Shown here: positions 1,326-25,366 of the stretch, in pieces
How positions within the stretch are numbered: the stretch's first letter is position 1
Layout: each line of letters opens with the position of its first letter
From: Saprospiraceae bacterium
GTDB lineage: Bacteria; Bacteroidota; Bacteroidia; Chitinophagales; Saprospiraceae
Length of the DNA stretch: 34,721 nucleotides
Direction: 5' to 3'
NCBI GenBank assembly: GCA_028285085.1
Contig: JANQQI010000048.1
Coordinates: 1 to 34,721, forward strand
The notes under the pieces: model-generated
Told to the model about the DNA's origin: nothing
The model's database searches: none
What the model saw: the letters and a program-made list of their open reading frames with translations, nothing else
Made by a program: the position numbers and the translations under genes

Positions 1326-3797
1326 ATGAACCGCTATTTTTTCCTTTTCATTTTCCTCTTCATTAGCATTTCGAGCCAGGCTCAGCGTCGAACTTTACTG
1401 ACCGATCGAGCGATTATCCGAGGTAAGCTGCAGCTGGCTGGTATGCAGATTGATTCAATCAGTACCGACTCCAATTTTGTTAATCCTTCTCACCAAAAGC
1501 TGCCCACGCAAAAAGCCGTTGAGCAACGGATCCAACTGCATCGAGAGCGCAGCCGGCATATTGAGTTCTACGGAGCAGGCCTTGATGATGGGATCGATGA
1601 TAGTGCCACATTGGGAAATCTTAGTGGCAATCAAACCATCCTGGTCAATGGCCAACTGGATATCAACGCTGATGTTACCTTGGGAGCTTCACTTGATTTT
1701 AGTGAAGGCGGCTCACTCCATTTGGCAGATAATGTAACGGTGACCATTGCCGTGCCTTTTATCCCTGCAGAGAATATTTTCCAAGGGAATGCCTTGGTCA
1801 AACTTGATGTAGGCCTGGAAGCCATTAACGTTAAATGGTTTGGAGCTACCGGGGATGGGATGACGGATGATGCAGATGCCATCCAGCGAGCCATAGATGC
1901 TTGCCTCTATGGGAATAGAATGAATAAGCTCATTTATCTGCCGGCCGGTGACTACCGAATCACGAAACCCTTACACCTTGGCTACGGTAATGCTTTTCGT
2001 ACGATCTCGTTGGTGGGCGCCGGTGTGGCTTATCGCAGCGAAGCTTCCTTTGGAGGGACGACGATCATCGCAGATTTTGCGCAAGGCATGGCGGTGAATA
2101 TCCAGGGCTTGCGTAATGCGACCATTAAGGATTTATCAATCACCGGGCAGAATGCGATTGAGAATCCTACCGGCTGGGCGATGCAGGATCCTGCTAACTG
2201 GATTGATCCCACTTTGCCAGCTGATGCAAATAGCCAGTTTGCGCCCTACAGCGCCATCACCGTGGACGCCTACGCGGGGAGTCGGCCGGCCATTTCCTAT
2301 CCCAATGTGGCTTACCCCTTTTACGCGGAGAATGGGAATCAGTACAATAAGTATTTTACCTCCGTGGTCACCATCGAGAATGTGTACATCGATCGCTTCA
2401 TCAATGGGGTCAGTGTGCAACCCTGTAACGCCGATGGCAATGGCGATTTTGTCCGCATCGATAAGGTCGGGATTGAACGCTGTTTGAATGCGATCAGCAT
2501 CGGTAACTCTCAAAGCCGTAATCTCAATGTGTCCAATAGTCAGCTGAGGGCGCATACCAATATCACAACGAGTGATCATGGAAAACAGGTAGGCCGTGTT
2601 GACCTGGTGCAGAATGTACACTTTACTGGCTATCAAGCTTTCCGGATCACCAATACGGCTGTCAGTGGACCGCTGCTGGTCGAATCCTCCTACGGTGAGG
2701 TACTTGGGCGTATCGGTCAGATTGGGAGTAATTCCTCTAACAACGGCTCCGTCTACTTTGTATCCTGTCATTGGCAGTTTGATGGCTTCAATAATCATTA
2801 CATGATTGATATGATCGATATTGATCACAAGGCCAGCACATACTTCCAGGGGAATTTATTTACCGGGATGAAGTGGTATACTGTCGACAACACCTCAAAT
2901 GCACATGTGGCTTTTGTAGACTGTAATTTCTTTGGCCGGCCAGCTTCCTGTGAGCCGGCCAGCGAAGATGTAGAAGACGAGGCGCACGAGTATTTTTATA
3001 AGTACAATGCCTTCGTCTGGGGCAAGAACCCGGAGACGATCAGTATAGAGCGCAGTAAGCGCAGCTCCTCGCCGAGTTATAGTGGGCAGACTGAGCCATT
3101 TGGAAAAGGGACCAATCTGATCTTCAGCCATCCGCAGTATCTCACGCACTGGGATGATGACTTGAAATACCTGGACGATAATACGGCGCATCAGATCTCC
3201 CTGAAGTATCATGGCCGCATCCGCTATTTTCAACCCGCTGGACAAAGCGCTGTTCTGAATCAAAGGGTATTGACTTTCAACCTGCCGGAGGCCAACAACT
3301 ATGGCTACGGAATCGGGACGACTTACACTAGCCCAGATGGATCCATCTTCCTAGTTGATTCAATAGATGGAACGGCCATGTGGGCCAAGCTGATGAATAA
3401 CTATCTGGCGGATAGCAATGGAGACTTTGTCAGCTATACCAATGGGACCCCGAATTTGAGTCTGACCGGGAAGCTATACAGTCCTAATAAACTGGTGATG
3501 CCGAGAAATATCATTGGTGACTTCACGCAGGGCAGTGACCAGGTGACAAACTTACGCTACGCTGACACTGGGGCCGCGGCTAGTGATTTCATTCGCCCCT
3601 CAACACCGCTTTTCTATCTCAACGATGTCGTTCGTGATCAGGATGAATACCTCAGCTCGGATTGTTACATCCTATCTGCTAGCGGGACTTCGCTGACGCT
3701 TAAAACTAATGCTCGTCTGACGGGGACATTTCCACTAATGACTGCCTGGGCGACGGGTAAGGAGATTTTGTATTATTTGATATCGTTGGTTAACTGA
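1326..3797 (+). CDS. Beta-helix tail-spike-like protein with signal peptide (pectate lyase 3 superfamily)
   Basis: This 823-residue protein has three visible parts. Residues 1-19 form a hydrophobic signal-peptide-like segment ending in 'SSQAQ'. Residues 45-70 include 'LPTQKAVEQRI', close to the 'LPTxKAVxxYV' motif of phage tail-fibre N-termini. From about residue 168 comes the 'VKWFGATGDGMTDDADAIQ' signature of the pectate-lyase-3 / GH28-like right-handed beta-helix, followed by 'IYLPAGDYRI'. Such domains form trimeric depolymerising tail spikes. The C-terminal 200 residues are beta-rich and of no family I recognise. Its position right after the connector gene supports a phage adhesin or depolymerase. 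A Sec signal peptide is odd for an intracellularly assembled virion part. The alternative is a secreted polysaccharide-degrading enzyme carried as cargo. Confidence 0.65.
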   Translation: MNRYFFLFIFLFISISSQAQRRTLLTDRAIIRGKLQLAGMQIDSISTDSNFVNPSHQKLPTQKAVEQRIQLHRERSRHIEFYGAGLDDGIDDSATLGNLSGNQTILVNGQLDINADVTLGASLDFSEGGSLHLADNVTVTIAVPFIPAENIFQGNALVKLDVGLEAINVKWFGATGDGMTDDADAIQRAIDACLYGNRMNKLIYLPAGDYRITKPLHLGYGNAFRTISLVGAGVAYRSEASFGGTTIIADFAQGMAVNIQGLRNATIKDLSITGQNAIENPTGWAMQDPANWIDPTLPADANSQFAPYSAITVDAYAGSRPAISYPNVAYPFYAENGNQYNKYFTSVVTIENVYIDRFINGVSVQPCNADGNGDFVRIDKVGIERCLNAISIGNSQSRNLNVSNSQLRAHTNITTSDHGKQVGRVDLVQNVHFTGYQAFRITNTAVSGPLLVESSYGEVLGRIGQIGSNSSNNGSVYFVSCHWQFDGFNNHYMIDMIDIDHKASTYFQGNLFTGMKWYTVDNTSNAHVAFVDCNFFGRPASCEPASEDVEDEAHEYFYKYNAFVWGKNPETISIERSKRSSSPSYSGQTEPFGKGTNLIFSHPQYLTHWDDDLKYLDDNTAHQISLKYHGRIRYFQPAGQSAVLNQRVLTFNLPEANNYGYGIGTTYTSPDGSIFLVDSIDGTAMWAKLMNNYLADSNGDFVSYTNGTPNLSLTGKLYSPNKLVMPRNIIGDFTQGSDQVTNLRYADTGAAASDFIRPSTPLFYLNDVVRDQDEYLSSDCYILSASGTSLTLKTNARLTGTFPLMTAWATGKEILYYLISLVN

Positions 3798-3904: not shown

Positions 3905-4210
3905 ATGATAAGATTAACTATGCCACAGGTATACGTATTATCGTCCCTGGAAGGCCAAGACCGATATGGTCTCGAAATCATAAAAGCGGTGAAAAAAATC
4001 GCCGGTCAAAAATTAATATTAGGCAGCCTCTACAATATTCTCAGTAAGCTGGAGCGCGATGATCTGATTGAAGGTTACTGGCGGGATGGAGAGACAGAGG
4101 ATAGAGGAGGACACCGAAGGAAGTACTATAAAATAACGGCAGCTGGAGAAAGGACTATGGATGAAGTTCGTGGAGGATTGGGGAGAATGTGGGGGATGGC
4201 GTTTGGGTGA
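3905..4210 (+). CDS. PadR-family transcriptional regulator
   Basis: This 101-residue winged-helix DNA-binding protein carries the PadR core: an N-terminal helix with 'YGLEIIKAVKK', the recognition-helix region 'LGSLYNILSKLERDDLI', and the wing 'GHRRKYYKITAAGERTM'. It is a short PadR form lacking the C-terminal helical dimerisation domain of PadR-s2 proteins. PadR regulators usually repress an adjacent membrane-protein or transporter gene. Here two small membrane-protein genes follow, beginning 35 bp after its stop, and are the obvious candidate targets. The ATG at 3905 is preceded by an A-rich stretch and no Shine-Dalgarno, which is common in Bacteroidota. A probable promoter overlapping a dyad lies about 35 bp upstream. 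It is not a phage structural gene, so it marks the left edge of the cargo block. Confidence 0.9.
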   Translation: MIRLTMPQVYVLSSLEGQDRYGLEIIKAVKKIAGQKLILGSLYNILSKLERDDLIEGYWRDGETEDRGGHRRKYYKITAAGERTMDEVRGGLGRMWGMAFG

Positions 4211-4245
4211 TTTTGCAATTTTGAAAACTTATAATTTGTTAGTTC

Positions 4246-4698
4246 ATGAAAAACTTTAAGATACTAACATTACTTGTGCTTACTATATATTGGATGATTG
4301 CAAGTTATGAACTTCTTGGTAAGGACGATTTACATTGGGGAGAATCCGTTTCATTGATAATAGGTGCAGTAGTTATTCTGACTGGCTTACTTGAGATAGT
4401 AATAACTGAAAATAGACATGGTTTTTCTTTTAAGACTTATTCAAAGAAGCTTAATTCATTTCAAATTACCTTTTCTCAAAGGATTAGATTAAATCTTATC
4501 CAAAGAATTTTGTCTAAGGAGCGATATGAAGAAACTATAAGTAATTTGGCAGACTTAAAATACGAATTACGACAAGAAGGTGTTAATGAGTCAGAAATCA
4601 AAAAGCGAATATTCAAAGAAAAGAGGGATATTATTCTGTATGCCCTTTTAGACAAAATTCGTGGAATGTTTAGAGGACAAAAGAAAATCCAGGATTAA
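4246..4698 (+). CDS. Small membrane protein of unknown function
   Basis: I do not recognise this 150-residue protein. It has two predicted membrane segments (about residues 4-23 and 33-53) followed by a roughly 95-residue charged, helical cytoplasmic tail that includes 'ERYEETISNLADLKYELRQE'. It is AT-rich compared with the phage structural genes and lies 35 bp after the PadR gene, with the next membrane-protein gene 15 bp downstream, so the three probably form an operon. PadR regulators are often paired with membrane proteins carrying short helical cytoplasmic domains (HAAS-type), but I cannot assign that domain here. The function is unknown, and control by the adjacent PadR is inferred from position only. 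Confidence 0.7.
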   Translation: MKNFKILTLLVLTIYWMIASYELLGKDDLHWGESVSLIIGAVVILTGLLEIVITENRHGFSFKTYSKKLNSFQITFSQRIRLNLIQRILSKERYEETISNLADLKYELRQEGVNESEIKKRIFKEKRDIILYALLDKIRGMFRGQKKIQD

Positions 4699-4713
4699 TT
4701 CTAACCGATTATC

Positions 4714-5181
4714 ATGCAAAAGTTGAAAAAAGTATGGGCATCAATTAAAGAGGTATTTCTACTCACTTTGGCTTTTTTATTGGGTTGCTTTGCATTCAAG
4801 AAGAAAGGATATATAGATGGAGGATTTTTTTGGTGTATATCTTTTTTTTTTAATGCGGAGATCAGAAATCAGATATTAAAGACTACTGCAAGCATTACCA
4901 CGACGATCCAGTTATATTTTCAAATCTTCATTTTCCCACCTTTCAAATACACCTTTGACGTTTTCCGAATTCTCATTTCCCGGCCTTACTTGGTTTTCAT
5001 CTCAGCAGCCCGCTACGAGGAAATACAAGGAGATTTAAATGAGATGGCGACTATTATGGAGCGCACTGGCTTATCGCGTTTTCAGGTTAATGGCATTCTC
5101 TTTTTGCAGAAAGTATCTATCCTGGCTAATCTCTCCGCCATCAAAGTCCGCGATGCGATGCGGAAGGAGCGAGTGAAGTAG
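4714..5181 (+). CDS. Small membrane protein of unknown function, with a T10 tract
   Basis: I do not recognise this 155-residue protein. It has a hydrophobic segment at about residues 13-28, a second aromatic-rich hydrophobic stretch at about 35-48, and a hydrophobic patch around residues 65-95. It ends in a soluble helical tail with 'DLNEMATIMERTGLSRFQVN'. It follows the previous membrane-protein gene by 15 bp and probably belongs to the PadR operon. A run of ten T residues (4842-4851) encodes 'SFFF' and would shift the frame if it slipped. Base composition changes within the gene: the first 180 bp are very AT-rich and the remainder clearly less so, suggesting a mosaic origin. Confidence 0.65.
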   Translation: MQKLKKVWASIKEVFLLTLAFLLGCFAFKKKGYIDGGFFWCISFFFNAEIRNQILKTTASITTTIQLYFQIFIFPPFKYTFDVFRILISRPYLVFISAARYEEIQGDLNEMATIMERTGLSRFQVNGILFLQKVSILANLSAIKVRDAMRKERVK

Positions 5182-5199
5182 ATTTTCATTATAATCAAT

Positions 5200-5229
5200 T
5201 TGAAACTATGTTGTTGTAAATTATCTTAG
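5200..5229 (+). promoter_or_regulatory. Probable promoter of the 295-residue protein gene
   Basis: TTG at 5200-5202, a 19-bp spacer, then TATCTTAG at 5222-5229, seven of eight positions close to the Bacteroidota TAnnTTTG element allowing one mismatch. It sits 29 bp before the ATG at 5258. The leader contains TACTAACCCTA (5236-5246), an 11-mer also found at 10206-10216 just before another cargo gene. Confidence 0.4.
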
Positions 5230-5257
5230 GGGTATTACTAACCCTAAGCTTACGACT

Positions 5258-6145
5258 ATGTTTGACTTCCTACGTCGACTATTTGGCCTAAAAAAGTCAA
5301 AAGAAAAGAAAGTCCTTGTACCCCATGAGGATTACAAAAGCAAAGAATTTTCAGATTCTGAAAAAAGTAAATTTCATAATCCAGAGTTCTCTCAACTCGT
5401 CCCCCCCGATCCTAAGACTGCAAAGGAAAGCGAAATACTACGCTTCATTAAAAATGCCAGTATCGCTGAAGTAGAGAGCTGGTTCTACGGGCATAAACAA
5501 AAAGGACATAACTTTTTTGATTCTATCTACTATGCTGCTCTGGATAAGATTGCATCTAAGGAAGATGAGTTTTATTTGGAACAGCTGAAGGGTATGACAG
5601 CAGAAGAAGTTAAGGCACTTTATCGTGAAGAAAGGCGAGAAGGAGTATATTTTTCTGACACTGTTTACCAGATAATAATGGACATTATTAATTCAGAAAA
5701 ATACCAGAAGAAGTGGGAAATTGATTTGAATACCATATCCTCCCAAAGGGTATTGACCTGGTACTTAAAAATAGCTGATTCCGAAGCATTTGACTATATC
5801 CCAGACGAATTGGAGCGTATTGCCAAAACAAAGATTGAAACTTTATTTAAAGATGAAAAACTATCTATCCCTTACCAAGTAAAACTACTGCACTATTCCC
5901 AACATTATGCCTCAATGGAAGTCACTCAAACCGAAGAGTATTTGAATTTAATTCAGTCTGCGGTCAAAGAAAATAAATTAGATAAGTTGAATAGTATGTA
6001 CCTAAGAAAGATAGGAGAAAAAGCGGAAGCTTTAGGTGACCTTCCAAGAGCAGTTACGTTTTATGAAATTGCTCTATCCGTAAATTCAAAAGTTGGTGTC
6101 AAGAAAAAACTAAAGAAGCTGAAAGATGTCCTGGATAAAGATTAG
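5258..6145 (+). CDS. Soluble helical protein of unknown function, TPR-like C-terminus
   Basis: This 295-residue cytoplasmic protein has no signal peptide or membrane segment. The N-terminus is basic ('LRRLFGLKKSKEKK'). The middle contains two related helical blocks around 'IAEVESWFYGHKQKGHNFFD' and 'TAEEVKALYREERREGVYFSD', each followed by an 'IYYAALDKI' or 'VYQIIMDII' helix. They look like an internal duplication about 50 residues apart. The C-terminal 50 residues ('EKAEALGDLPRAVTFYEIAL') match a tetratricopeptide-like helix pair. The gene is AT-rich like its left neighbours and has its own probable promoter. The family is not recognised; a role in protein-protein contacts is the most that can be inferred. 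Confidence 0.7.
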   Translation: MFDFLRRLFGLKKSKEKKVLVPHEDYKSKEFSDSEKSKFHNPEFSQLVPPDPKTAKESEILRFIKNASIAEVESWFYGHKQKGHNFFDSIYYAALDKIASKEDEFYLEQLKGMTAEEVKALYREERREGVYFSDTVYQIIMDIINSEKYQKKWEIDLNTISSQRVLTWYLKIADSEAFDYIPDELERIAKTKIETLFKDEKLSIPYQVKLLHYSQHYASMEVTQTEEYLNLIQSAVKENKLDKLNSMYLRKIGEKAEALGDLPRAVTFYEIALSVNSKVGVKKKLKKLKDVLDKD

Positions 6146-6196
6146 TATCATCGACCAGTTTTGAACAATAATGAAACTGGATAGGACCTGCCCCTC

Positions 6197-6227
6197 TTGG
6201 CTTTCGGAGAAATTTCCCTTATCTTTG
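6197..6227 (+). promoter_or_regulatory. Consensus Bacteroidota promoter for the leader of the first 87-residue protein
   Basis: TTG at 6197-6199, 20 bp, then a perfect TAnnTTTG element (TATCTTTG, 6220-6227). Transcription should begin a few bases later, around 6231-6234, which is where the first arm of the paired leader structure begins. Confidence 0.65.
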
Positions 6228-6232
6228 GAACT

Positions 6233-6402
6233 GAATACGCCAAATTCAAATTTCATATTATGTTAGTTCCACTCCATTTTTCGCAAGTCCGGAAAATAAA
6301 GAAACGAGAAGCCCCTTCCTGTCTTAGCATTGCTAACATAGGTTTGAATATTGGCGTATTCGGGGGGCTTTCTCTATTTTCTAATTTTAAACGAATACGC
6401 CA
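6233..6402 (+). promoter_or_regulatory. 5' leader with mutually exclusive base-paired arms covering a start codon
   Basis: Arm A (GAATACGCCAAATTCAAA, 6233-6250) is complementary to arm B (TTTGAATATTGGCGTATTC, 6343-6361) over 18 bp with a one-base bulge. Arm B is also complementary over 11 bp to arm C (CGAATACGCCA, 6392-6402), whose last base is the A of the ATG at 6402. A:B and B:C cannot form together, and B:C would hide the start codon. A further possible pairing is AGAAGCCCC (6307-6315) with GGGGGGCTTT (6362-6371). This has the layout of a translational switch, but no ligand or family is recognised. An alternative reading is a 129-bp element with terminal inverted repeats (A and B). Confidence 0.5.
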
Positions 6403-6665
6403 TGTCCAATCCAAAATCTCCCCCAAAACCTGAACCGACCCATTTAGAACTCAAAGAGATCTATCAACGTGCCGAAAGGCTCTACCCAAATGACCTTTGT
6501 CCACCAGCTGAGCTGATCAGCGATTTGGGAACGGCCTTGCTTGCGTATATGCAATCCGAGGACTTTCACCGAGACCCCGATCGCGAGTACATCGGGCCAC
6601 GGCTCCTGCATTTTTACAAATACCTGAGCCGGCTCACCAATTTTTGGGAGCAAGAGCGCGCCTGA
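6402..6665 (+). CDS. 87-residue protein of unknown function, paralogue 1
   Basis: The ATG at 6402 is preferred over an in-frame upstream ATG at 6351 because the homologous protein at 8712-8975 has the same 87-residue length and the leader arms end at 6402. The protein is soluble and mostly helical. It shares with its paralogue the motifs 'EIYxRxxxLxPxxLCxPxEL', 'DLxxALxAYxQSxDFH' and 'PDREYIGPRLLHFYxYL', with roughly 60% identity over the last 70 residues by eye. No catalytic motif is evident. Transcription probably starts near 6232 and stops at the hairpin at 6672-6700. It faces the helical-repeat gene convergently. The function is unknown. The strong conservation of 'DREYIGPRLLHFY' suggests a binding surface. 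Confidence 0.8.
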   Translation: MSNPKSPPKPEPTHLELKEIYQRAERLYPNDLCPPAELISDLGTALLAYMQSEDFHRDPDREYIGPRLLHFYKYLSRLTNFWEQERA

Positions 6666-6671
6666 TCTTTC

Positions 6672-6700
6672 AAAGCCCCGTCGCCCGCCGATGGGGCTTT
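6672..6700. terminator. Bidirectional hairpin terminator between convergent genes
   Basis: AAAGCCCCGTCG (6672-6683) pairs with CGATGGGGCTTT (6689-6700): a 12-bp GC-rich stem with one G-U pair and a 5-base loop, with A/T triplets at the stem ends. It lies exactly between the stop codons of the 87-residue gene (+) and the helical-repeat gene (-), so it can end both transcripts. Confidence 0.75.
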
Positions 6701-6701
6701 G

Positions 6702-8174
6702 CTATAGGGCTTCGACGAGGAAGGCCCAGAGGTCTTCGTAGGGGATCAGTTCGATCTCGATATCGCCCAGGGCGAGCGGCTCAGCCTGTAGGCGGTCGAG
6801 GTAGGGCTTGGCCTTGCGGCGGAAGGCAACTGGGTGGAAGCGGCTGATGGGGAGCTGCATCAGGGTTTTGATGAAGCAATTGCTGCGGTAGGTGTAGTCG
6901 CGACGTAGGTGCTTGTGGGCGTAGGCCTTGAGCGCATCGATGCGGTCGATGATCTTGCCGCGCTGGTGGTTGATAAGGTAGATGAAGATCTGGGCGACGA
7001 GGATGGAGACATTAGCGCCGAGCTTGTCGCGTGAGAAGATGGGCACCTCATTGAGGAATTTGCCGAGCTTGAAGCGGCGGCGGTGCTGCACCCGCCCGAG
7101 CTTGTCGAGGATGTAGAGGTAGGCCTCGATGATGCGCCATTGCTCGGTGAGGTTGGGACTGGGGCAATCGTACTTGAGGTACAGCTCAAAGGCCTCCTCG
7201 GCCCAGGTGTACTGCCGGGCGTGCAGGGCGTTGATGGCTTGGTAGATCAGCGCTACCTGCCAATTGTACCCACCGGGCTTACGAATCTCAAGACAACGCG
7301 ATAGCGCCGCTCTGGCGGCTTCAAACTGACGCAGGAGGATATAAGCCGGCACCATTTTGATTAGGAAGGCGAAGTACGTCAGATTACCCGGCGGAAAACT
7401 AAGCTGATCGAAGTAAGCAATCGCATCCTCTCCGGTGACAATCACCCGCTCCGGTTTCTCTTCCAGATGAGACAACACGATCTGAGCATTGAAGCGTAAT
7501 GAAGTGAGCCGATAAGTTGGATAAGGCTGGGTCAACTGGATCAGTTGCTTTGTCAAGCCAAGAAGATCGTCCTTATCCTCTTCCTCTACTTTATGGATAC
7601 GTGCAAAATAGGCCGCTATCTTTGAATAAAGTAGCTCTGCCTGCATTTCAATACGATACAGCTCATTGTATCGATTGTAAATCTCCTCAAATACTTTTTG
7701 GCGCTTCTCATCACCAGTAATCAGGTAGTGCTGCAGTAGCTCAAAACTGAATAGATAGCACAGCTCCGTGAGTTCATATTTTTGACAATCGCGTAAGGCC
7801 TCCTCAGCGATATCGAGCGCCGCAGCTTTGGACCCTCTGGACAGCAACAGCTTCATGGCCGCGAAGCGCTTGTATCCACGATCATAGTTGATGCGGTACT
7901 CCTCCCTTTTCTCATCTACGATCAGAAATAACGTACTAATCAGAATCTCATCGAGATTGCGTTTGAGGTGGCTAAAACTCGATTGACTGCCGGTTTCGCC
8001 ATATATCTCCTGCCGGATAGCTTCTTCTTCCTGCTCCGGCTGATCGTGAATCAAATCGTAGAGCTGACGGACTTTGGTCCCCTCGTACTGGGGATTATTC
8101 AGTAGTCTCGCTCGATTTAGATGCCAGCGATTTACCTGCTTGGTCAGATCCCGAAGACGCTTTAAAGACGACAT
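6702..8174 (-). CDS. Large helical-repeat (TPR-like) protein of unknown function
   Basis: The ATG at 8174 (490 residues, starting 'MSSLKRLRDLTKQVNRW') is chosen over an in-frame ATG 63 bp upstream, because that extension is Cys/Tyr-rich and unlike the rest. The protein is soluble and almost entirely alpha-helical, with helix pairs of TPR-like spacing. It has no enzyme motif, signal peptide or membrane segment. The N-terminal 90 residues look like those of the 483-residue protein at 19927-21378: an opening helix, then a 'LLNNPQY...LYDLI' block, then 'LKRNLDEILISTLF'. I therefore take the two as distant members of one family, seen by eye only. It is flanked on both sides by the two 87-residue paralogues and is preceded on its own strand by the hairpin-rich intergenic region. 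Confidence 0.75.
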   Translation of the reverse strand: MSSLKRLRDLTKQVNRWHLNRARLLNNPQYEGTKVRQLYDLIHDQPEQEEEAIRQEIYGETGSQSSFSHLKRNLDEILISTLFLIVDEKREEYRINYDRGYKRFAAMKLLLSRGSKAAALDIAEEALRDCQKYELTELCYLFSFELLQHYLITGDEKRQKVFEEIYNRYNELYRIEMQAELLYSKIAAYFARIHKVEEEDKDDLLGLTKQLIQLTQPYPTYRLTSLRFNAQIVLSHLEEKPERVIVTGEDAIAYFDQLSFPPGNLTYFAFLIKMVPAYILLRQFEAARAALSRCLEIRKPGGYNWQVALIYQAINALHARQYTWAEEAFELYLKYDCPSPNLTEQWRIIEAYLYILDKLGRVQHRRRFKLGKFLNEVPIFSRDKLGANVSILVAQIFIYLINHQRGKIIDRIDALKAYAHKHLRRDYTYRSNCFIKTLMQLPISRFHPVAFRRKAKPYLDRLQAEPLALGDIEIELIPYEDLWAFLVEAL

Positions 8175-8388
8175 TTGTTTGATTATCAGTTTTTTATAAA
8201 AAAAATCAGTTCTGGGTCGGCAGTAATTGCAATTCAATTGATCGGTTATCGTCTTACATGGGTAAAAAATAGAGGGACTTAGATTTGGAATGAATCAAAA
8301 GTCCCCCTACGACATGCTTACAATACTTGAAGCACTCCTCTACATAATCATAGAGGATTCTACGGAGGTTTGATAGAGGAGAACGCCG

Positions 8389-8537
8389 AAGCGTCCTCCC
8401 AAAGGTGTTTCTAAAATTAAGAAACAGTTCATACCACGATAATAATTATTCTGGCGTGGCTGGAATAATTATTGTCGTACAATCTTGTAAGCGCCATCCC
8501 ACGGTGCTTTTCCCAAATTAGAGCAGTTCTGCTCATA
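8389..8537 (+). repeat. Degenerate direct repeat, two copies spaced exactly 100 bp
   Basis: The block beginning AAGCGTCCTCCCAAAGGTG at 8389 recurs as AAGCGCCATCCCACGGTG at 8489, and both continue through a T-rich stretch and AAATTA-like bases into a CAGTTC motif. A shorter third similarity (TACAATACTTGAAGCACTCC, 8319-8338) matches the bases that open the second copy (8478 onward). The 16-bp hairpin at 8436-8478 separates the two full copies. Confidence 0.5.
8436..8478. repeat. 16-bp inverted repeat with 11-base loop
   Basis: ACGATAATAATTATTC (8436-8451) and GAATAATTATTGTCGT (8463-8478) are complementary at all 16 positions, counting one G-U type pair, around the loop TGGCGTGGCTG. The stem is AT-rich and has no T-tract, so it is not a usual intrinsic terminator. 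It is the strongest hairpin of the surrounding array. Confidence 0.75.
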
Positions 8538-8645
8538 CTAATTCCCACATTTTTAGGTCAATAGTATTCAAATAGCGTCAGAATTGGTCAAAACTAGTCT
8601 GGTGTTATCTTGCAAAAGTGTCTGATTTTCGAATTTTTATAGCAT

Positions 8646-8653
8646 TATATTTG
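8646..8653 (+). promoter_or_regulatory. Promoter -7 element for the second 87-residue protein gene
   Basis: TATATTTG is a perfect TAnnTTTG element. No clear TTG lies 19-20 bp upstream. The predicted start near 8658 would give a leader of about 55 bases beginning within a 7-bp hairpin (ACTGTTT 8656-8662, AAACAGT 8671-8677). Confidence 0.5.
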
Positions 8654-8711
8654 CGACTGTTTAGACGCAGAAACAGTTCATCCAGTATTTCTAATCCAGA
8701 AATCAATTTTA

Positions 8712-8975
8712 ATGCTACGACAACCTTCATCGGAGGTGGATGAACTGCAATTGCGCGAAATCTACGAGCGCACCGCGAAGCTTTTTCCATATCACCTTTG
8801 CCGCCCTTCTGAGCTGACCGGCGACCTGGCCGTCGCCCTCATCGCCTACCTGCAATCGGATGACTTCCATAATCATCCCGATCGGGAGTACATTGGCCCT
8901 AGGCTACTGCATTTTTATCAGTACCTGATTAAGTTGGTGGGGTATGTGGAAGGGGAGGATGAGGGGGAGAGTTAA
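8712..8975 (+). CDS. 87-residue protein of unknown function, paralogue 2
   Basis: This protein is homologous along its whole length to the one at 6402-6665, with the same 87-residue length and the shared motif 'PDREYIGPRLLHFYQYL'. It is soluble and helical, with an acidic tail ('EGEDEGES'). It is transcribed divergently from the helical-repeat gene, across the hairpin-rich region, from a consensus -7 element at 8646-8653. Its stop lies two bases from the stop of the convergent pentapeptide gene at 8978. The function is unknown. Two retained copies around one large gene suggest either a duplicated module or two differently regulated versions of one partner protein. Confidence 0.8.
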   Translation: MLRQPSSEVDELQLREIYERTAKLFPYHLCRPSELTGDLAVALIAYLQSDDFHNHPDREYIGPRLLHFYQYLIKLVGYVEGEDEGES

Positions 8976-8977
8976 AA

Positions 8978-10117
8978 TTATGTGGGCTTCTTCATGAGAA
9001 GATAATATATTCTTCCACCCTTGTCCCTTCTAGGACGATCGTCGACATAAAAGTTTTCTTCAATTTCATCTATATTTATTCCAGCCTGACACTTTGCACG
9101 AAAATTTTGGATCCAAAATTTATCTGATACTTTAGTATTATTGAAATGAACGCCCACGAGACTTTTAACTTTATGTAAAGTACATCTTCTTATATCCGAT
9201 TCTTCAAAGCTAGTTTGAATTAGTTTTGCATCATAAAATTCCACAGAAGAAAGATCTGATTTGTTGAATGTAACATTGTCGAGAAAGGCACCTATAAATC
9301 CAGCTCCAGATAAAATAACATTATTGAAGTTTACATCTTGGAAGTGCGCCGAATTAAATCCCGAATCTAGTAGGGTTGAATCTTTAAAAGATGTATTTCT
9401 AATCTCAGATTTGTAAAAATTAACTATTCCTTTCCAATTCTCAATTCTAGTTCTATTCAATATAGAAAATTCGAAAGTTCCTAGCGATAAATAACTATTT
9501 TCTAATGTGGCTCCAGTGAGATCAGCTCTATTGAAGTTTATATTTTTAATTCCTCTTGTGTCGACATTCCTTAACTTAATGTCATGTAACTTAGCATTGG
9601 TAAGATCTAAAATTGGTAACTTTTCGTTATCTAGTGCTCTCTCAATTAATCTTGGATCTCTAATTCTATTAATCTGCAGGTTTGATAGGTCAATTTCCTC
9701 ACGCTTCGCTCCCAGAGTTTGAAGACGAGAGACAATTCCGCTTACCCTATAAGCTGCTTCTTCGCTAGACCATCCTTCATAATAACGAAGCTCCGTTGTT
9801 AGTCGGTCAATTTCTCTTCTACGCTCCCCTTGCTGCTCCATTATATTGAACAGAAATACCAAAATAACGACATCGAATATTGCTCCGAATAGTTCAGTTA
9901 AGATACCAGGAAATTGATCTTTAGTATTGACTAACGGACGAATCGAATGGTAATAAGAAGTAATTAATAGAATGGAAATAGATAAGACTAAACCCGAAAG
10001 ATTAACACGATCTGTAGGAAACCGAAACCCTTTTTCATCTATCATGAAGTATAACAAAAAGCAAATACCAGCTAAGTATAGTAGCCAATGATTATTACTT
10101 TCTAAATATTCCCACAT
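8978..10117 (-). CDS. Membrane-anchored pentapeptide-repeat protein (AT-rich)
   Basis: This 379-residue protein has three predicted membrane segments (about residues 8-25, 41-58 and 77-93). A charged coiled-coil-like linker ('GERRREIDRLTTELRYYEGW') follows, and from about residue 190 to 340 a pentapeptide-repeat domain of degenerate A(D/N)LxX units ('FNRADLTGATLENSYL', 'FNKSDLSSVEFYDAKL'). Such repeats fold as a right-handed quadrilateral beta-helix and usually act as binding surfaces. The repeats here are diverged, unlike those of the neighbour at 10228. The gene is markedly AT-rich. It is divergent from the second pentapeptide gene across 110 bp, and both have the same three-TM plus beta-helix plan. 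The function is unknown. Confidence 0.8.
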   Translation of the reverse strand: MWEYLESNNHWLLYLAGICFLLYFMIDEKGFRFPTDRVNLSGLVLSISILLITSYYHSIRPLVNTKDQFPGILTELFGAIFDVVILVFLFNIMEQQGERRREIDRLTTELRYYEGWSSEEAAYRVSGIVSRLQTLGAKREEIDLSNLQINRIRDPRLIERALDNEKLPILDLTNAKLHDIKLRNVDTRGIKNINFNRADLTGATLENSYLSLGTFEFSILNRTRIENWKGIVNFYKSEIRNTSFKDSTLLDSGFNSAHFQDVNFNNVILSGAGFIGAFLDNVTFNKSDLSSVEFYDAKLIQTSFEESDIRRCTLHKVKSLVGVHFNNTKVSDKFWIQNFRAKCQAGINIDEIEENFYVDDRPRRDKGGRIYYLLMKKPT

Positions 10118-10227
10118 CTTATGAAATATGCTATTTTTCTAAAGATAAAAATCAAGGGATTCATTCATATACATCTGCAATATTTTTTTCCGTATTTTAC
10201 AACAATACTAACCCTACTTAGAGCAGA

Positions 10228-11766
10228 ATGAATGACGCCCCTAAAACCCGCAGCAATAATCACAAGCTGATTATTGGCCTCTTGGCTGGCCTCCTCCTGG
10301 GTATCCTCATCACCATGTACGTGTTGGATTATCTGCTTATTACCACACCGGTGCTGATCACGGTCCTGGTCACCATCTTTTTCCTGGCGATTATTATCCT
10401 GCTTCTGCTCACCTGGTTCCGGGAGCGCCTCCTCAAAAAATACCTGGGCTTCGATATGCCTATTGATACCGTTGCCAAAGAAGCGCAGGAGACAGTCACT
10501 CTAGTCTCTGGCCGTGCCGTCGAGACCTTCTTCCCCCTCATGGAGCAGGAGAAAAAGCGACAGCTCAAGACTTTCACCCCCCGAATCATCAATTACCTCC
10601 TCTGGGCCAATCTACGCAATTGGGGGCTGCGTTTTACCATTACCATTTTTGCGGCGATAGGGGGATTGTTGGGGGCGATTCTTCTATATAATCAAAACCG
10701 TCTCATTGATACCCAAGTCAATCTTGAGGAAGCTAACCGACGTAGCTCGCTCATTTTTCTGATGAGTAATATTATGGATAAAGTGGATGAGGAGTTGAAA
10801 GAAGATCCAAACAATGATAAAGTTAGAAATATTAGTCCGCAATTGATTGGACGGATTGCAGCCTTGAGTCAAGCCATGCGGCCTTATCGTTATCTACAAG
10901 ATGGTCAATTAATTGATAAGCCATTGAGTCCTGAGCGTGGGCAGTTATTGACCGCTTTAGTAAGGAGTAAATTTGATTCTTCTGGCTATGCAGATATATA
11001 CAAAGCGGTTAGATTTGAACGAGCAGATTTGCAGAGGGCGCAATTAAAATCCGCTTACCTCAACGAAACAGACCTCCGCGACGCAGACCTCCGCGGAGCA
11101 GACCTCCGCGACGCAACCCTCAGCGGAGCAACCCTCCGCGACGCAACCCTCCGCGACGCAACCCTCAGCACTGCAAACTTCCGCAGAGCAGACCTCATCA
11201 GAGCAAACCTCAACGGAGCAGACCTCAACGGAGCAGACCTCAGCAAAACAGCCCTCAGCGACGCAACCCTCCGCGACGCATACCTCCGTGGAGCAAACCT
11301 CCGCGACGCAGTCCTCCGCGACGCAGTCCTCCGCGACGCAATCCTCAGCGAAACATACCTCAGCAGAGCAGACCTCAGCGGAGCAGACCTCAGCGGAACA
11401 TACCTCAGCAAAGCAGACCTCCGCGGAACATACCTCAGCAGAGCAGACCTCAGCGGAGCAGACCTCAGCAGAACAGACCTCAGCAAAGCAAACCTCAACG
11501 GAGCAGACCTCAGCAGAACAGCCCTCAGCGCAGCAATGCTCATCGAAACAGACCTCAGCGGAGCAGACCTCAGCAAAGCAAACCTCAACGGAGCAGACCT
11601 CAGCAAAACAAACTTCAGCAATGTAAAAAATATCACATTTGAACAGTTACTTATTGTTATTAGCCTCTATGAGTGTAAAGGCCTTCCAAATGCTTTAGTT
11701 GCTCGCCTGAAAGCAGCCAAACCTGAACTCTTCGAAAAACCATCTTGGCCAGAAGAATTAGACTAA
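10228..11766 (+). CDS. Membrane-anchored pentapeptide-repeat protein with near-identical repeats
   Basis: This 512-residue protein has two N-terminal membrane segments (about 13-36 and 38-63), a third at about 134-155, and a soluble linker. A long pentapeptide domain follows from about residue 262 to 470 with units such as 'ADLSG', 'ADLRD' and 'ANLNG', and then a short unique C-terminus ('FEQLLIVISLYECKGLPNAL'). Central Leu and small-residue positions are almost invariant, as in the quadrilateral beta-helix family. The DNA coding for the repeats is itself a near-identical 15-bp tandem array, which opens false reading frames on other frames and strands. It is divergent from the pentapeptide gene at 8978-10117. 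The gp10-like gene follows after 45 bp, so this gene forms the right end of the cargo block. Confidence 0.9.
   Translation: MNDAPKTRSNNHKLIIGLLAGLLLGILITMYVLDYLLITTPVLITVLVTIFFLAIIILLLLTWFRERLLKKYLGFDMPIDTVAKEAQETVTLVSGRAVETFFPLMEQEKKRQLKTFTPRIINYLLWANLRNWGLRFTITIFAAIGGLLGAILLYNQNRLIDTQVNLEEANRRSSLIFLMSNIMDKVDEELKEDPNNDKVRNISPQLIGRIAALSQAMRPYRYLQDGQLIDKPLSPERGQLLTALVRSKFDSSGYADIYKAVRFERADLQRAQLKSAYLNETDLRDADLRGADLRDATLSGATLRDATLRDATLSTANFRRADLIRANLNGADLNGADLSKTALSDATLRDAYLRGANLRDAVLRDAVLRDAILSETYLSRADLSGADLSGTYLSKADLRGTYLSRADLSGADLSRTDLSKANLNGADLSRTALSAAMLIETDLSGADLSKANLNGADLSKTNFSNVKNITFEQLLIVISLYECKGLPNALVARLKAAKPELFEKPSWPEELD
11059..11620 (+). repeat. 15-bp tandem repeat array inside the pentapeptide gene
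   Basis: About 37 units of 15 bp, of the type GACCTCAGCGGAGCA, run without interruption. Units differ at only a few positions and keep the same codons (CTC for Leu, GCA for Ala), which points to recent expansion by slippage or recombination. Because the unit is a multiple of three, unit gain or loss would lengthen or shorten the protein without shifting frame. Confidence 0.9.
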
Positions 11767-11811
11767 ATCCCTGTCCTTTATCCCTCCACTGCAAGGGCCG
11801 AGCTTTGTCTT

Positions 11812-12231
11812 ATGATCAAAGACAATACTCCTCGCCTTGGCGATCGGCTGGAGGAAATGGATCAGGCGATCCTCGACTGGGCCAAGCTCACTCGTACCAA
11901 GCTACGCTACCGACTGGCTCAGCTCACCATGGAAGATCGGGTTCGACTCAATAAAAGTATTCGCCATCGGCTGCGGAAGAAATCCGGAGAGATTGAAGGT
12001 GTGGCTTTTTCCTTTCAACGCCACGGGATTTTCCTGGAACACGGTGTCGGACGTGGCCGGAAAGTAGGCAGTGAGAAAGCCAAGAGATATCGCAAACCTT
12101 GGCTCAGCACAGTACTTCCCGCCGAAATGGAGGCTTTGGCCAATCTCCTGGTCGAGCAGTATGCCGATATTGCCGTGGAGCAGATTAAGCTCAACATCCC
12201 CGGTGTCATCAAAACGGAAATCTCTAACTGA
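11812..12231 (+). CDS. Small phage structural protein (gp10-like neck/tail-completion candidate)
   Basis: This 139-residue basic protein carries an N-terminal helical region ('DRLEEMDQAILDWAKLTRTK') and a conserved-looking segment 'FQRHGIFLEHGVGRGRKVG'. That phrase resembles the 'xxGxxxExGTxxxxAxPFLxPAL' region of HK97 gp10-like minor tail or neck proteins and related Bacteroidota phage proteins. The gene sits directly before the tape-measure gene and overlaps it by one base (TGATG), so the two are translationally coupled. The assignment rests mainly on position and size; it is not a confident family match. No Shine-Dalgarno is evident, and the ATG at 11812 gives the full conserved N-terminus. 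Confidence 0.5.
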   Translation: MIKDNTPRLGDRLEEMDQAILDWAKLTRTKLRYRLAQLTMEDRVRLNKSIRHRLRKKSGEIEGVAFSFQRHGIFLEHGVGRGRKVGSEKAKRYRKPWLSTVLPAEMEALANLLVEQYADIAVEQIKLNIPGVIKTEISN

Positions 12232-15200
12232 TGGCAAGGCGGCAAGTTTCCATATTCATTAATGGCCGGGCGATCGCCAATCAGATCAAGCCAATCCGCG
12301 CGGAGAAGCGGAAGGTCGTCCGAGAGTTGAATAATATGACTGTCGGCACTACCGCCTATGAGAAAAAGATGCGTGAGCTGGACAAGCTCAATCCGATTAT
12401 CAATCGCCATAATCAGCGCATTCGTGGCGTGGCTTCTACCTGGGATAAGGCTAGAGTTGCCGGCGGTCGACTATTGGCCTTCACTGGGATAGCTTTCACC
12501 GCTGATGCGATCGTAGAGTATACCAAAGAACTCTTTCGCACCGGCGTCCAGATAGATACCCTCAGCCGCAAAGCGGAGACTGTGCTTGGCCCGGCGCTCG
12601 AGTACGTGCGACGACAAGCTCAGGAGAATGCCCGTGATATGGGACTCACCGTGGCGCAGTACGTAGCGGCTACTACCGCGATAGCTGATCTTTTGATCCC
12701 AATGGGTTTCCAACGTCAGGAAGCGGCAGAGATGTCGACTACCTTGGTTGATTTATCCGGAGCCTTATCTGAGTGGACCGGTGGTCAGCGTAGCGCCGAG
12801 GAGATCACTAAAATCCTGGGCAAAGCAATCCTCGGTGAACGCGAGCAGCTTAAAGAGCTAGGGATCTCCATCCAAGAAGCGGATGTCAAAGCGCGCTTGG
12901 CCGAGAAGGGCCTCGATAAGCTCACCGGCACTATGCTCCAGCAAGCTAAGGCAGCAGCGACTCTGGAGCTGATCACCGAGAAGTCAGTAGATGCGCAAAC
13001 CTCCTTTGCGACCAATACTGACAGCCTGGTACGTAAGCAGCAGCAACTCTCCGCAACGATTACCGATATTAAGCAAAAAATCGCGCGCCTCCTGATCCCG
13101 GTCTTCGAGCGCCTACTGGATGTAGCCACCCCATTTGTTGATCTGATTGCCCGATATCTGGATACCCCGGTAGCCGCTAAGCTGAAGGAAGAACAACAGG
13201 GACTGAACGTACTGGTGACGCGGATCACCGAGGCCAATATCAAGCAGGAAGATCGAAATAAACTCATCGCTGAGCTGCAGGCGCGCTATCCTGATTTTCT
13301 GGGTCAACTCGATGCTGAAACGGTCACCAATGAGGAGCTGGCCAGTCGTTTGCTCGAGGTCAACAATCAATACATTTACAAGCTCGCTTTACAGAAGGAG
13401 GCCGAAAAGGTGGAAGCCCAAGCCAACCGTCTGGCCGATAAGCAACGCATGCTGGCCGAGCGACGTCTGGAAGTTCAGAAGAACATCGTCAAGATCAACG
13501 AGGACTACAAATTGGGCCTTGATCTGACGAACAAAAGCCTGGAGGAACGTATCCAACTCACAGAACAAGCTCTGCGACAAAGCGATGCTTTCCGCAAAGA
13601 AGACGGTAGCAGCAATGAGATTTTGGCGCGTTCACTGGCTGGCGTACTCGCTAAGATTGAGTTGCGGAAGATCAGCTCCAAGGAGCGTGAGGTTGAACTG
13701 GAGCAGGATAAACTTACGAGCCTCCAGGCTTACGTCGAGGAATTGAAAGCAAGCCTCTCTCTACAACTCGGTATAGAGACGAGCAAAGAGACCGAAGCCG
13801 AGATCGAAACGCAAAGTATCAACTACCAACGGGCCAAGCTCGAACTCCTGAAACAACTCGCCAGCCAAGGGGATGAATTAGCTTTGAAAGAGATCGCCCG
13901 TCGAGAAGCACTGGCCAAGGAGCTGGAGAAGGAAGAAAAACGCGCCGAGAAGGCCGCCGAACGAGAGATCGAGCGACAGCGTAAGCAACTCGAAAGACTC
14001 CAGGAAATGACCCGCGAAAAAGCACGTGAGCTTCGAGTGGCTGCCCTGAGTGAAGACGAGCAACGAATAGAAGCTATCCGCCAGCGCTACGCCAAGGAGA
14101 TTAAGTTGGCTAAAGATTTAGAGGCTAAAGGCATACGCGAAGCTTCACTGGAACGCCTCGAACTGGAGCGCATGCGGGACGAAGAAATTCAAGCGTTCCG
14201 CGAGCAATTAGCCGGAGAAGCTATCGAAAGAGATCTGGAACGCGAGGCCGAAAAGCAGGAGCTGGAACTGGACCAATACCTAGATTATCTCGAGAAGAAG
14301 GAAGCGGCACGCCAGCTCATCGATGGAGAGTTACGCACGGAAGAAGAGGAAGAGCTACTGCAGCTGGAATTACATTACCTAAACATGCTGAATCTGGCCG
14401 AGCAGTTTGGCTTCGATACTGTAGCCATTACCGAAGCGTATCGAAAACGGAAGGCAGAGATCGAAGCGAAGTACGATAAGCAGGAAATCGATCAAACCAG
14501 AAAACTCAGTGATGCGAAGCGTGAACTCCAGATGGCTCAGATTGGTGCTTTGAGGGAGAGTAGTCAGGCCTTGGCGTCTTTAGTTGGAGAAAATACGGTA
14601 CTCTCAAAAAGCCTGTTTTTATTCGAAAAATCTCTGGCTGCAGCTGAGGTGATTATTAATCTCCAGAAAGAAATTGCGGCGATCTCTGCACGTAATGCAG
14701 CCATCCCGGGTGGTCCGATCTTATCTGCTATTGAGATTGCTAAAGCTAAAGCGCGTGCTACCGGGAGCTTAATCACGATCGCCGCCACTTCCGTGGGAGG
14801 AATTACTCAACGTAAGCACGGCGGCTGGCTCAACGTCACCGGCCAAGACGACGGCATTACCTACCGGGCGCAATACCTTGGTCGCCCTCGATCCGGGATG
14901 CTCCCCAACCATCCAGTGGTGCTGGCCAGCGAAGTTGGTCGAGAGTACTTCGTTTCCAATCGCGCCCTCGAGGATCCCCAGGTCTTCAACCATGTACAAG
15001 CCATCGATAATATTGTCCGCCGTCGGATCCCACAATATCGACAAGGTGGGGCGACGGTACCATTGCCGGCCGAAGACTCCAATGCAGCTGTTACCTCCAG
15101 CGCTGCTCCGAATCTCTCACAGCTCCGCAGTACTGTCATTGAGTTGGCGACTCAGGTGAGCCGCCTCAGTGAGCAGCTGGACCAGGGGATTTATGCGGTC

Positions 15201-15278
15201 ATCGAGGATGATACCACCATAGCTTTGATCAAGCGATTTAGGATACTGAATGAAGCCGCTGGGGGGACTTTGGACTAG
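12231..15278 (+). CDS. Phage tail tape-measure protein
   Basis: This 1015-residue protein sets tail length in siphovirus-type phages and helps DNA entry. The N-terminal part has the tape-measure core pattern: 'FIKELFRTGVQIDTLSRKA'-like helices around residues 95-115, then 'LTVAQYVAATTAIADLLI', 'LSGALSEWTGG' and 'ILGKAILGEREQLKELGIS'. Residues about 380-800 are highly charged coiled coil rich in Glu, Lys, Arg and Gln. Near residues 780-850 lies an Ala-rich hydrophobic region ('AISARNAAIPGGPILSAIEI') typical of the membrane-inserting part. By the usual 0.15 nm per residue rule it would span a tail of about 150 nm. It is coupled to the preceding gene. Its 3' end overlaps the integrase gene, on the opposite strand, by 41 bp. 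Confidence 0.92.
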   Translation: MARRQVSIFINGRAIANQIKPIRAEKRKVVRELNNMTVGTTAYEKKMRELDKLNPIINRHNQRIRGVASTWDKARVAGGRLLAFTGIAFTADAIVEYTKELFRTGVQIDTLSRKAETVLGPALEYVRRQAQENARDMGLTVAQYVAATTAIADLLIPMGFQRQEAAEMSTTLVDLSGALSEWTGGQRSAEEITKILGKAILGEREQLKELGISIQEADVKARLAEKGLDKLTGTMLQQAKAAATLELITEKSVDAQTSFATNTDSLVRKQQQLSATITDIKQKIARLLIPVFERLLDVATPFVDLIARYLDTPVAAKLKEEQQGLNVLVTRITEANIKQEDRNKLIAELQARYPDFLGQLDAETVTNEELASRLLEVNNQYIYKLALQKEAEKVEAQANRLADKQRMLAERRLEVQKNIVKINEDYKLGLDLTNKSLEERIQLTEQALRQSDAFRKEDGSSNEILARSLAGVLAKIELRKISSKEREVELEQDKLTSLQAYVEELKASLSLQLGIETSKETEAEIETQSINYQRAKLELLKQLASQGDELALKEIARREALAKELEKEEKRAEKAAEREIERQRKQLERLQEMTREKARELRVAALSEDEQRIEAIRQRYAKEIKLAKDLEAKGIREASLERLELERMRDEEIQAFREQLAGEAIERDLEREAEKQELELDQYLDYLEKKEAARQLIDGELRTEEEEELLQLELHYLNMLNLAEQFGFDTVAITEAYRKRKAEIEAKYDKQEIDQTRKLSDAKRELQMAQIGALRESSQALASLVGENTVLSKSLFLFEKSLAAAEVIINLQKEIAAISARNAAIPGGPILSAIEIAKAKARATGSLITIAATSVGGITQRKHGGWLNVTGQDDGITYRAQYLGRPRSGMLPNHPVVLASEVGREYFVSNRALEDPQVFNHVQAIDNIVRRRIPQYRQGGATVPLPAEDSNAAVTSSAAPNLSQLRSTVIELATQVSRLSEQLDQGIYAVIEDDTTIALIKRFRILNEAAGGTLD

Positions 15279-16326
15279 TAATAGATGGAAACTTCGATCG
15301 AAGTTTACGCAAATCGGCTACACCTAACTGCCGCAGATATCGATCCACCTCTTCCAGGGAACTGTGTCGCAGCTGGATTTGCAATTCCTTAATGCTAATC
15401 CCGGCTTTTACACAACTCACAGCCCCCGTATGCTTCCAACTATACACGGTATAACCCTTTCCAAAGTTGAGTTCCTTTAAGAGTTTACGATGCCGATCGT
15501 ACATGGTATTGTAGCCAATGGGTTTACTCTTATCACGCTTTGAAGGGAACAGCCATTCATTCGGATCACGATGCTTCAGATGTTCCAGGGCAGGTAAGAA
15601 AGCATCCGGGATGACGACATACTCCGTTTTATAATTTTTACTGACCTCTCCCCTCACCACAATCTTAGAATCCTCCCAAAGGATATCCCCTACCCTCAAT
15701 AAACGAAGTTCACTATTGGGCCTGATAAAACAGTAATAAACGAATTGTATAAACAACCACAGCTCTTCATCCCGTTCCTGCATCAGCCGAGCCAAACGCT
15801 TTGCTTGATAAGTTTGATAGTAGCGATCTGGAGTCATGTGATTCCGAAGCCTGGCAATAGGCATAATCATCTCCTCCTCCCCTACCCCTTTCAGGAGGTG
15901 ACCGATCAATTGCCGGTGTGCATTGTAAGTTGACTTGTGACGACTATTCGTTAAATGGTTAAAGAAGCCGATCAGGGTTTCACTACTTACCTCACGACCA
16001 TTCAACCACTCAACCAAGTTAAACAAGCGAGACTTGTAGGTTGAATAAGTCTTCGGACGCCAGCGCCCCTTATTATTCTCCAGAAAACGAATCATTTTGA
16101 AGATCAGCGATTCACGCTTAAAGTACTCTGTATGAAGCTCTTCGATAAGTTTTTCAGCAGCTTGGAGTCGCTTGTCTAAAGTATGGTACTTATTAATATC
16201 TCCATACTTCTTCAGGCGCTGTCCCGCTACCTTAAAATCAATATACCAGGTCTTGGATAGGTCTCGATTTTTGGGCCTTATCGAGAATTCGGGAAGTTGA
16301 GGTAAAAATTTTTTTTCTATTGCCAT
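15238..16326 (-). CDS. Tyrosine-family site-specific integrase
   Basis: This 362-residue phage-type integrase has an N-terminal arm-binding region (about 1-90), a SAM-like core-binding domain (about 95-180), and a C-terminal catalytic domain. The catalytic residues are visible: Arg in 'CFIRPNSELRLL', the beta-hairpin Lys in 'GEVSKNYKTEYV', the box II segment 'YSWKHTGAVSC', His in 'LQLRHSSLEEV' and the nucleophilic Tyr in 'VDRYLRQLG'. Box II has Lys where classical integrases have Arg, a variant I recall in Bacteroidota integrases. It is transcribed from beside the tRNA-Ala gene into the prophage and ends inside the tape-measure gene. The ATG at 16326 gives a complete N-terminal domain. It should catalyse integration and excision at the tRNA locus. 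Confidence 0.93.
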   Translation of the reverse strand: MAIEKKFLPQLPEFSIRPKNRDLSKTWYIDFKVAGQRLKKYGDINKYHTLDKRLQAAEKLIEELHTEYFKRESLIFKMIRFLENNKGRWRPKTYSTYKSRLFNLVEWLNGREVSSETLIGFFNHLTNSRHKSTYNAHRQLIGHLLKGVGEEEMIMPIARLRNHMTPDRYYQTYQAKRLARLMQERDEELWLFIQFVYYCFIRPNSELRLLRVGDILWEDSKIVVRGEVSKNYKTEYVVIPDAFLPALEHLKHRDPNEWLFPSKRDKSKPIGYNTMYDRHRKLLKELNFGKGYTVYSWKHTGAVSCVKAGISIKELQIQLRHSSLEEVDRYLRQLGVADLRKLRSKFPSITSPKSPQRLHSVS

Positions 16327-16433: not shown

Positions 16434-16508
<75 letters not shown>

Positions 16509-22574: not shown

Positions 22575-22611
22575 AAAGCGGTAGGTCAGACCTGGTCCAA
22601 CCTACCGCTTT
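22575..22611. terminator. Bidirectional hairpin terminator
   Basis: AAAGCGGTAGGT (22575-22586) and ACCTACCGCTTT (22600-22611) form a perfect 12-bp stem with a small nested GACC/GGTC stem in the loop. On the minus strand the stem is followed by five T, ending the DUF805 transcript. It also lies just past the stop of the plus-strand T9SS gene. Confidence 0.85.
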
Positions 22612-25227: not shown

Positions 25228-25366
25228 ATCAGTTTATGCTAAATAATCCAAGTTGTAATTGATGAAGAGAGATAAGGATAAGGAGGATTTTGTGTAAAAT
25301 ATTTGATTTGGCAATACAGATTAGATAAATGGCCTCTCTTCTGATTGATTGTAACTTGTATTAAAA

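Follow-up and report, generated by a model that had tools for sequence, protein, structure and literature searches.

Transcription attenuators work through competing antiterminator and terminator hairpins. In translational attenuators of the erm type, which carry an open reading frame (ORF) in the leader, arms alternately free and cover the start codon. In Bacteroides, inverted repeats serve invertible promoters. A 154-bp invertible switch with a known recombinase and termination through Rho has been described in the 5' leader of flgB in C. difficile (PMC7446863). Long 5' UTRs with short ORFs are reported for Bacteroides thetaiotaomicron, where they are called reminiscent of attenuation-mediating leader peptides (PMC7366714). 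Bacteroidota are described as having no Shine-Dalgarno sequence, initiation being tuned by structure and by nucleotides near the start (PMC6847099, PMC3155529). A refolding leader in this phylum would therefore be a clean test of structure alone setting expression. The stretch at 6232-6401 studied here, upstream of a small gene of a Saprospiraceae bacterium, may be an orphan attenuator-type 5' leader acting in cis, a tentative assignment with a probability of about 0.35.

The window, i.e. the whole stretch of 34,721 nucleotides that was analyzed, is a contig of a 7.47-Mb genome, and its left part looks like a prophage. Family searches identified a DUF6712 protein (311-1303), a tail-spike-like protein (1326-3797) and an integrase (15238-16326) adjoining a tRNA-Ala (16434-16508), and a weak match (E about 5e-5) pointed to a tape-measure-like protein at 12231-15278. 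The genes within 3905-11766 are read as cargo. They include a PadR regulator, a pentapeptide-repeat protein at 8978-10117 and proteins without family; a second pentapeptide-repeat protein, at 10228-11766, was judged by eye from its repeats. The repeat part of this last gene (11055-11636) also contains long low-complexity open frames, on the opposite strand and in a different frame. PADLOC models gave no match for nine cargo proteins. T9SS sorting domains were present in two proteins of the window, a pointer to Bacteroidota. The protein of the upstream neighbour gene (5258-6145) had two weak matches, of 21% and 38% identity, outside its own genome in a search of 198 genomes, and neither this protein nor that of 6702-8174 had a match in viral contigs.

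The gene downstream of the putative leader (6402-6665, + strand) encodes a protein of 87 aa that is predicted to be all-helical. An earlier sequence-only reading of this DNA had described it as a protein without a known function lying in prophage cargo. This description agrees with the lack of a match in Pfam, PHROGs, PADLOC and NCBIfam and with neighbours that are read as cargo. The structural model had a mean pLDDT of 80.1 and a pTM of 0.57. Comparison with PDB structures returned 20 matches with E up to 10, and since the best of these had an E of only 4.2, the model yields no function. By sequence comparison, a paralogue at 8712-8975 (+ strand), 55% identical, is the sole relative found. 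Further relatives were absent from 58 related genomes, from overlapping draws of 398 genomes of the family, 396 of the order and 395 of the phylum, with the own genome among them, and from scans of GTDB contigs, viral contigs, phages and plasmids, where those of GTDB and viral contigs each relied on two short peptide patterns, which distant relatives can escape. Differences between the two genes were distributed as 34, 24 and 49 over the three codon positions in 84 codons, with a dN of 0.39. The synonymous sites were saturated by the method used, and the case for coding therefore rests on the codon-position counts and on conservation. The two genes stand in the same layout (6402-8174 and 8712-10117), in which a small gene on the + strand, belonging to one orphan family, faces a larger gene on the - strand. 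The larger genes differ in Pfam, one encoding a 490-aa protein without clear family and the other a 379-aa pentapeptide-repeat protein. The gene 6402-6665 (+) converges with 6702-8174 (-), and a compact hairpin between them at 6671-6701, CAAAGCCCCGTCG / CGATGGGGCTTTG, is perhaps a terminator common to both; it was absent from the output of a terminator scan that allowed loops of 3-8 only.

The three arms on which the sequence-only reading was built are all present exactly where it had placed them. Arm A (6233-6250, + strand, GAATACGCCAAATTCAAA) makes up the first bases of the predicted transcript and pairs with arm B (6343-6361, + strand, TTTGAATATTGGCGTATTC) in a helix of 18 bp with one bulge, across a spacer of 92 nt. 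Arm C (6392-6402, + strand, CGAATACGCCA) is the perfect complement of 6352-6362, and B:C is a perfect 11-bp helix whose end is the A of ATG 6402. The possible partners of B are A, C or B itself. A and C are direct copies of each other (14 of 17 bases), and B is an inverted copy. A scan for inverted repeats with stems of at least 17 bp, at most one mismatch or bulge and a spacer of 3-150 found A:B as the only case in the window and none in 30 shuffled windows. A sample of 367,085 bases from this genome contained three, as compact hairpins spanning 38-46 bases. Once more mismatches were allowed, a further repeat appeared in the window at 22575-22611 (18 nt, 89%, 1-nt spacer). Of 5000 shuffles of 6363-6402, 4 matched the length of the observed helix to B with Watson-Crick pairs and 49 when G-U pairs were counted, with 10 bp scored as the observed length since B was cut at 6361. 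The pairing of A:B and of B:C is real and non-trivial.

A Bacteroidota primary-sigma promoter was predicted by pattern scan at 6197-6227 (+ strand), with TTG at 6197-6199, N20 and TATCTTTG at 6220-6227. The published consensus is TTTG/TANNTTTG, with 4-5 nt separating the -7 element and the start (PMC6847099), and this distance puts the predicted transcript start at 6232-6233. The consensus promoter with a start near 6232 that had been proposed earlier thus fits the published pattern. The predicted promoter is well placed, yet the pattern count over the window was not significant, as TTG-N19-21-TANNTTTG gave three matches over the two strands and 100 shuffles averaged 1.34. Leaders in Flavobacterium johnsoniae are reported to average 33 nt (PMC6847099), and the resulting leader of near 170 nt would be long by comparison.

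The sequence-only reading had overlooked a bare -7 element at 6339-6346, TAGGTTTG. If it served as a downstream promoter, a short RNA from near 6351 would be made in which only B:C is possible and the start is partly covered, while the upstream promoter would give A:B, so that control would lie in the choice of promoter and not in refolding. The folding of such RNAs agrees with this idea: those starting at 6351 or 6352 gave B:C with a probability of 1.0 and a half-paired start region, and those starting at 6232 gave A:B with a probability of 1.0. A leader of 50 nt would also be closer to the reported 33-nt average (PMC6847099). However, no TTG was found at N19-21 upstream of the element, and the + strand of 5150-12000 holds 10 TANNTTTG elements, those at 6220 and 6339 counted, which puts the copy at 6339 at chance level. 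Control by promoter choice is considered very unlikely.

A third fold between A and C, absent from the sequence-only reading, is formed by 6306-6317 and 6362-6374. These stretches are arm D (GAGAAGCCCCTT, + strand) and arm E (GGGGGGCTTTCTC, + strand), which form the 5' and 3' sides of the stem that closes a three-way-junction domain. The D:E stem has 10 Watson-Crick and two G-U pairs with one bulge, and its branched loop holds hairpin 1 (6318-6342, + strand), the 3' half of which pairs near 6258-6267 in the A:B fold, and hairpin 2 (6346-6361, + strand), which is formed by arm B itself. After the stem comes a T-rich tail, TATTTTCTAATTTT, at 6375-6388 (+ strand), as in an intrinsic terminator. 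From its sequence, the three-way junction with its tail can be called intrinsic-terminator-like; it was absent from the output of the terminator scan with its loops of 3-8 only. The domain was stable at 6290-6386 (z -3.98, 0 of 200 shuffles as stable) and at 6306-6375 (z -4.28, 1 of 400 shuffles), with the other strand of the latter also stable (z -4.00). D:E and A:B exclude each other because the order A-D-B-E makes them cross and because hairpin 2 uses B.

The fold of 6228-6420, the interval put forward for folding in the sequence-only reading, had an energy of -45.6 kcal/mol (z -3.48), and none of 200 shuffles was as stable. For 6232-6401 the z was -2.84 (0 of 400 shuffles), and the other strand was nearly equal (z -2.64). 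Tiling of the window with 692 tiles of 170 nt, with 25 shuffles each, gave a z of -3.4 or lower in 18 tiles, and the tile at 6232 on the + strand was absent among the 30 tiles listed. Stronger folding is thus found elsewhere in the window, and the energy of the leader alone is unremarkable. Both strands of 8240-8600, between divergent genes, fold far more strongly than the leader (z -5.11 and -5.35, 0 of 400 shuffles each), and 8240-8730 reached a z of -6.78 (0 of 100 shuffles). No Rfam match was found for 8240-8600. A query with 8180-8711 against the own genome and 58 relatives returned, besides itself, only 23-30 bases at the left edge, outside the folded part. The stretch 8240-8600 is a candidate structured RNA. 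Strongly folded intergenic stretches were also observed at 22575-22611 and 25220-25950.

Constrained ensemble energies for 6232-6440 were -50.2 kcal/mol for A:B, -42.9 for B:C and -42.7 for D:E. The helices are mutually exclusive, with A:B ahead of D:E and B:C by about 7 kcal/mol. In the intact leader the probability of A:B was 0.999-1.000, and that of B:C was from 0.0007 to 1e-5, varying with the 3' end. Since the intact leader is almost wholly in A:B, B:C would need something to keep arm A away. With A blocked, or in RNA starting at 6251 (end 6440), D:E had a probability of 0.55 and B:C of 0.45. The A-blocked share of B:C depended on the 3' end and was 0.24 at 6402, 0.90 at 6420, 0.45 at 6440, 0.56 at 6470 and 0.27 at 6665. 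The mean unpaired share of 6390-6413 was 0.82 with A:B and 0.84 when D:E dominates, compared to 0.58 for RNA from 6251 and 0.50 for RNA from 6351. The earlier logic of exclusive helices, with the start open in A:B and covered in B:C, holds in these calculations. The two-state switch built on it was sustained in the exclusive pairing, but B:C did not exceed 0.0007 in the intact leader, and D:E rivals B:C when A is blocked. As D:E leaves the start as open as A:B does, it could lower expression only via termination.

Path barriers at full length were 17.7 kcal/mol from A:B to B:C and 10.5 for the reverse, 29.3 from A:B to D:E and 23.0 for the reverse, and 24.8 from D:E to B:C and 23.9 for the reverse. 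With barriers this high, the choice of fold would be slow to reverse once the RNA is made. In a crude co-transcriptional run with 0.03 or 0.1 s per base the RNA reached A:B, and with 0.01 s per base it stayed in local hairpins. D:E and B:C never formed in this run, even with A blocked, the candidate list being small. The modelled outcome is weak, but does not speak in favour of the switch.

An explanation without any switching could be that the upstream gene 5258-6145 simply has D:E as its intrinsic terminator, and that A:B and B:C arose incidentally when a scrap of sequence was duplicated and inverted at a DNA junction. Over the start of the 6402 gene the G+C content rises sharply, from 0.370 at 6050-6349 to 0.583 at 6500-6799, which suggests that DNA of different origins meets there. 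Two direct copies (A and C) with one inverted copy (B) are the pattern that duplication and inversion leave. The search for relatives of the gene points the same way, as it found one, and the leader of this paralogue is different. The sequence-only reading had looked to homologues for conservation of the arms, and in the one that could be checked it failed: no A, B or C arms lie upstream of the paralogue, which is preceded by a separate -7 element at 8646, TATATTTG, and a short predicted leader that is unstructured (8658-8730, z +1.03). However, read-through RNA from the upstream gene would carry A as well, so that by the ensemble energies A:B would form and mask D:E. It is also odd for scrap that copies of the motif sit where the transcript is predicted to begin and where the start codon lies. 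An incidental origin at a junction is uncertain but a serious rival, and is given nearly the same weight as the switch.

The attenuator-type leader remains a reasonable, if unproved, reading. In the default state the long A:B hairpin would form, leave the start at 6402 open and exclude the terminator-like D:E. If arm A were held off, e.g. by a ribosome starting at ATG 6260, D:E or B:C would form instead. D:E would bring about an early end of the transcript and B:C would cover the start codon, and the 87-aa gene would be turned down either way. As outputs, termination via D:E and hiding of the start via B:C are equally likely. Sequence and computation show the arms, their exclusivity, their order of stability and the rarity of A:B; use of the promoter, engagement of arm A, termination at D:E and the response in expression are inferred.

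The switch had also been called translation-sensing, although no sensor was named. A possible leader ORF of 57 aa (6260-6433, + strand) begins with an ATG 10 nt past arm A and overlaps the gene start in another frame. ATG 6260 lies 28 nt from the predicted transcript start, near the 33-nt average of F. johnsoniae, and has A at -3, which is reported to be favoured at starts (PMC6847099); ATG 6402 has G at -3. An ATG frame of at least 47 codons open to the leader end was kept in 81 of 5000 leader shuffles. The codon score per codon was -0.12 for the leader ORF, near the 25th percentile of stop-free stretches, and +0.12 for the 6402 gene and +0.17 for the paralogue. The codon usage of the leader ORF is not gene-like. 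When 6240-6275 was blocked, the probabilities were 0.948 for D:E, 0.039 for B:C and about 1e-5 for A:B; when 6245-6276 was blocked, A:B remained at 0.841 and D:E was at 0.150. The effect of a ribosome at 6260 thus rests on five bases of assumed footprint. A ribosome modelled at 15 positions from 6260 to 6344 left A:B at 0.84 or more at 13 of them, the last two shifting to D:E; beyond 6260, A:B was at least 0.95 until 6332. Sensing of translation thus has a possible sensor in ATG 6260, but one whose frame has codon usage unlike that of a gene and whose effect on the fold depends on the footprint.

A stricter form of the idea is a three-state prophage leader that reads translation initiation, in which a ribosome at ATG 6260 covers A and turns A:B into the D:E terminator, and a free A means that the gene is on. 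This was considered the most doubtful of the readings. If it were true, the prophage gene would be expressed when host translation initiation falters, e.g. under attack by another phage.

Searches were performed for further copies of the leader. The leader block had one match in the 7.47-Mb genome with E up to 0.001, and its best match in the 58 relatives was 26 bases long (E 0.005 per genome). Arm A with up to three mismatches had one other site in the genome, at three mismatches. A small repeated inverted-repeat element, an alternative that the sequence-only reading had raised itself, was not supported, given the single genome copy and the short matches in the 58 relatives. A window search for known Rfam cis-regulatory families at the gathering score gave only a tRNA, and on 6100-6750 with E up to 10 none of four Rfam matches overlapped 6232-6402. 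The three-arm pattern was absent from viral contigs and was present in one genome contig, archaeal, in which the stretch at the match is itself repeated. A looser B..C pattern occurred in three viral contigs, the stretches reading alike only in the pattern when compared by eye. No homologous leader was found in the own genome, the 58 relatives or the genome and viral contigs. The 10-mer GAATACGCCA occurred 34 times in the genome compared to eight for a reversed-letter control.

The repeated motif could also act at the level of DNA. A GAATACGCCANNTYCAA-like motif, present in three copies (A and C direct, B inverted), would then be a protein-binding or recombination site, e.g. bordering an invertible A-B segment or forming an operator set. 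Three copies in 177 bases agree with this, and inversion of the spacer in silico kept A:B and abolished arm D and the terminator-like D:E. Invertible promoters of Bacteroides are a precedent. The leader switch of C. difficile is another (PMC7446863). Against this, the motif, derived from A and C, occurred at up to three mismatches seven times in the window compared to 2.14 expected, three of these being A, B and C. No TANNTTTG lies wholly within the spacer 6251-6342 on either strand, where an invertible promoter of Bacteroidota would carry it, the copy at 6339 running into B. Apart from the integrase, no recombinase gene was identified in the window, and the assembly holds no second copy of the element. 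Lastly, the GAATACGCCA sites, in spite of their number, had by eye no common flank extension in 15 looked at of 31 outside the leader block. A role as a DNA element is considered unlikely.

If an attenuator-type leader controls this prophage cargo gene, its product could be one whose action is confined to times of trouble for the host. As a single orphan locus described from its sequence, it would have its value as a testable candidate. Compared to transcription attenuators, the putative leader is alike in that an early, long A:B excludes a terminator-like G+C stem with a T-rich tail. It is unlike them in the large, branched loop of D:E, in having no recognised site for a ligand, protein or tRNA, and in being without an Rfam match or homologues found. 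Alternating arms that free or cover the start codon and a possible leader ORF are shared with the erm type. However, the default here is open and not closed, and the 57-codon leader ORF, which overlaps the gene start, is unconvincing in its codon usage. The flgB switch of C. difficile, as described, is similar in its inverted repeats in a 5' leader and in termination as an output, which here is proposed (PMC7446863). It differs in its length of 154 bp, its known recombinase and its action through Rho, and inversion here is in silico only. The 5' UTRs reported for B. thetaiotaomicron belong to mapped transcripts, whereas the leader here is predicted, but the phylum is the same and both combine a long leader with a short ORF (PMC7366714).
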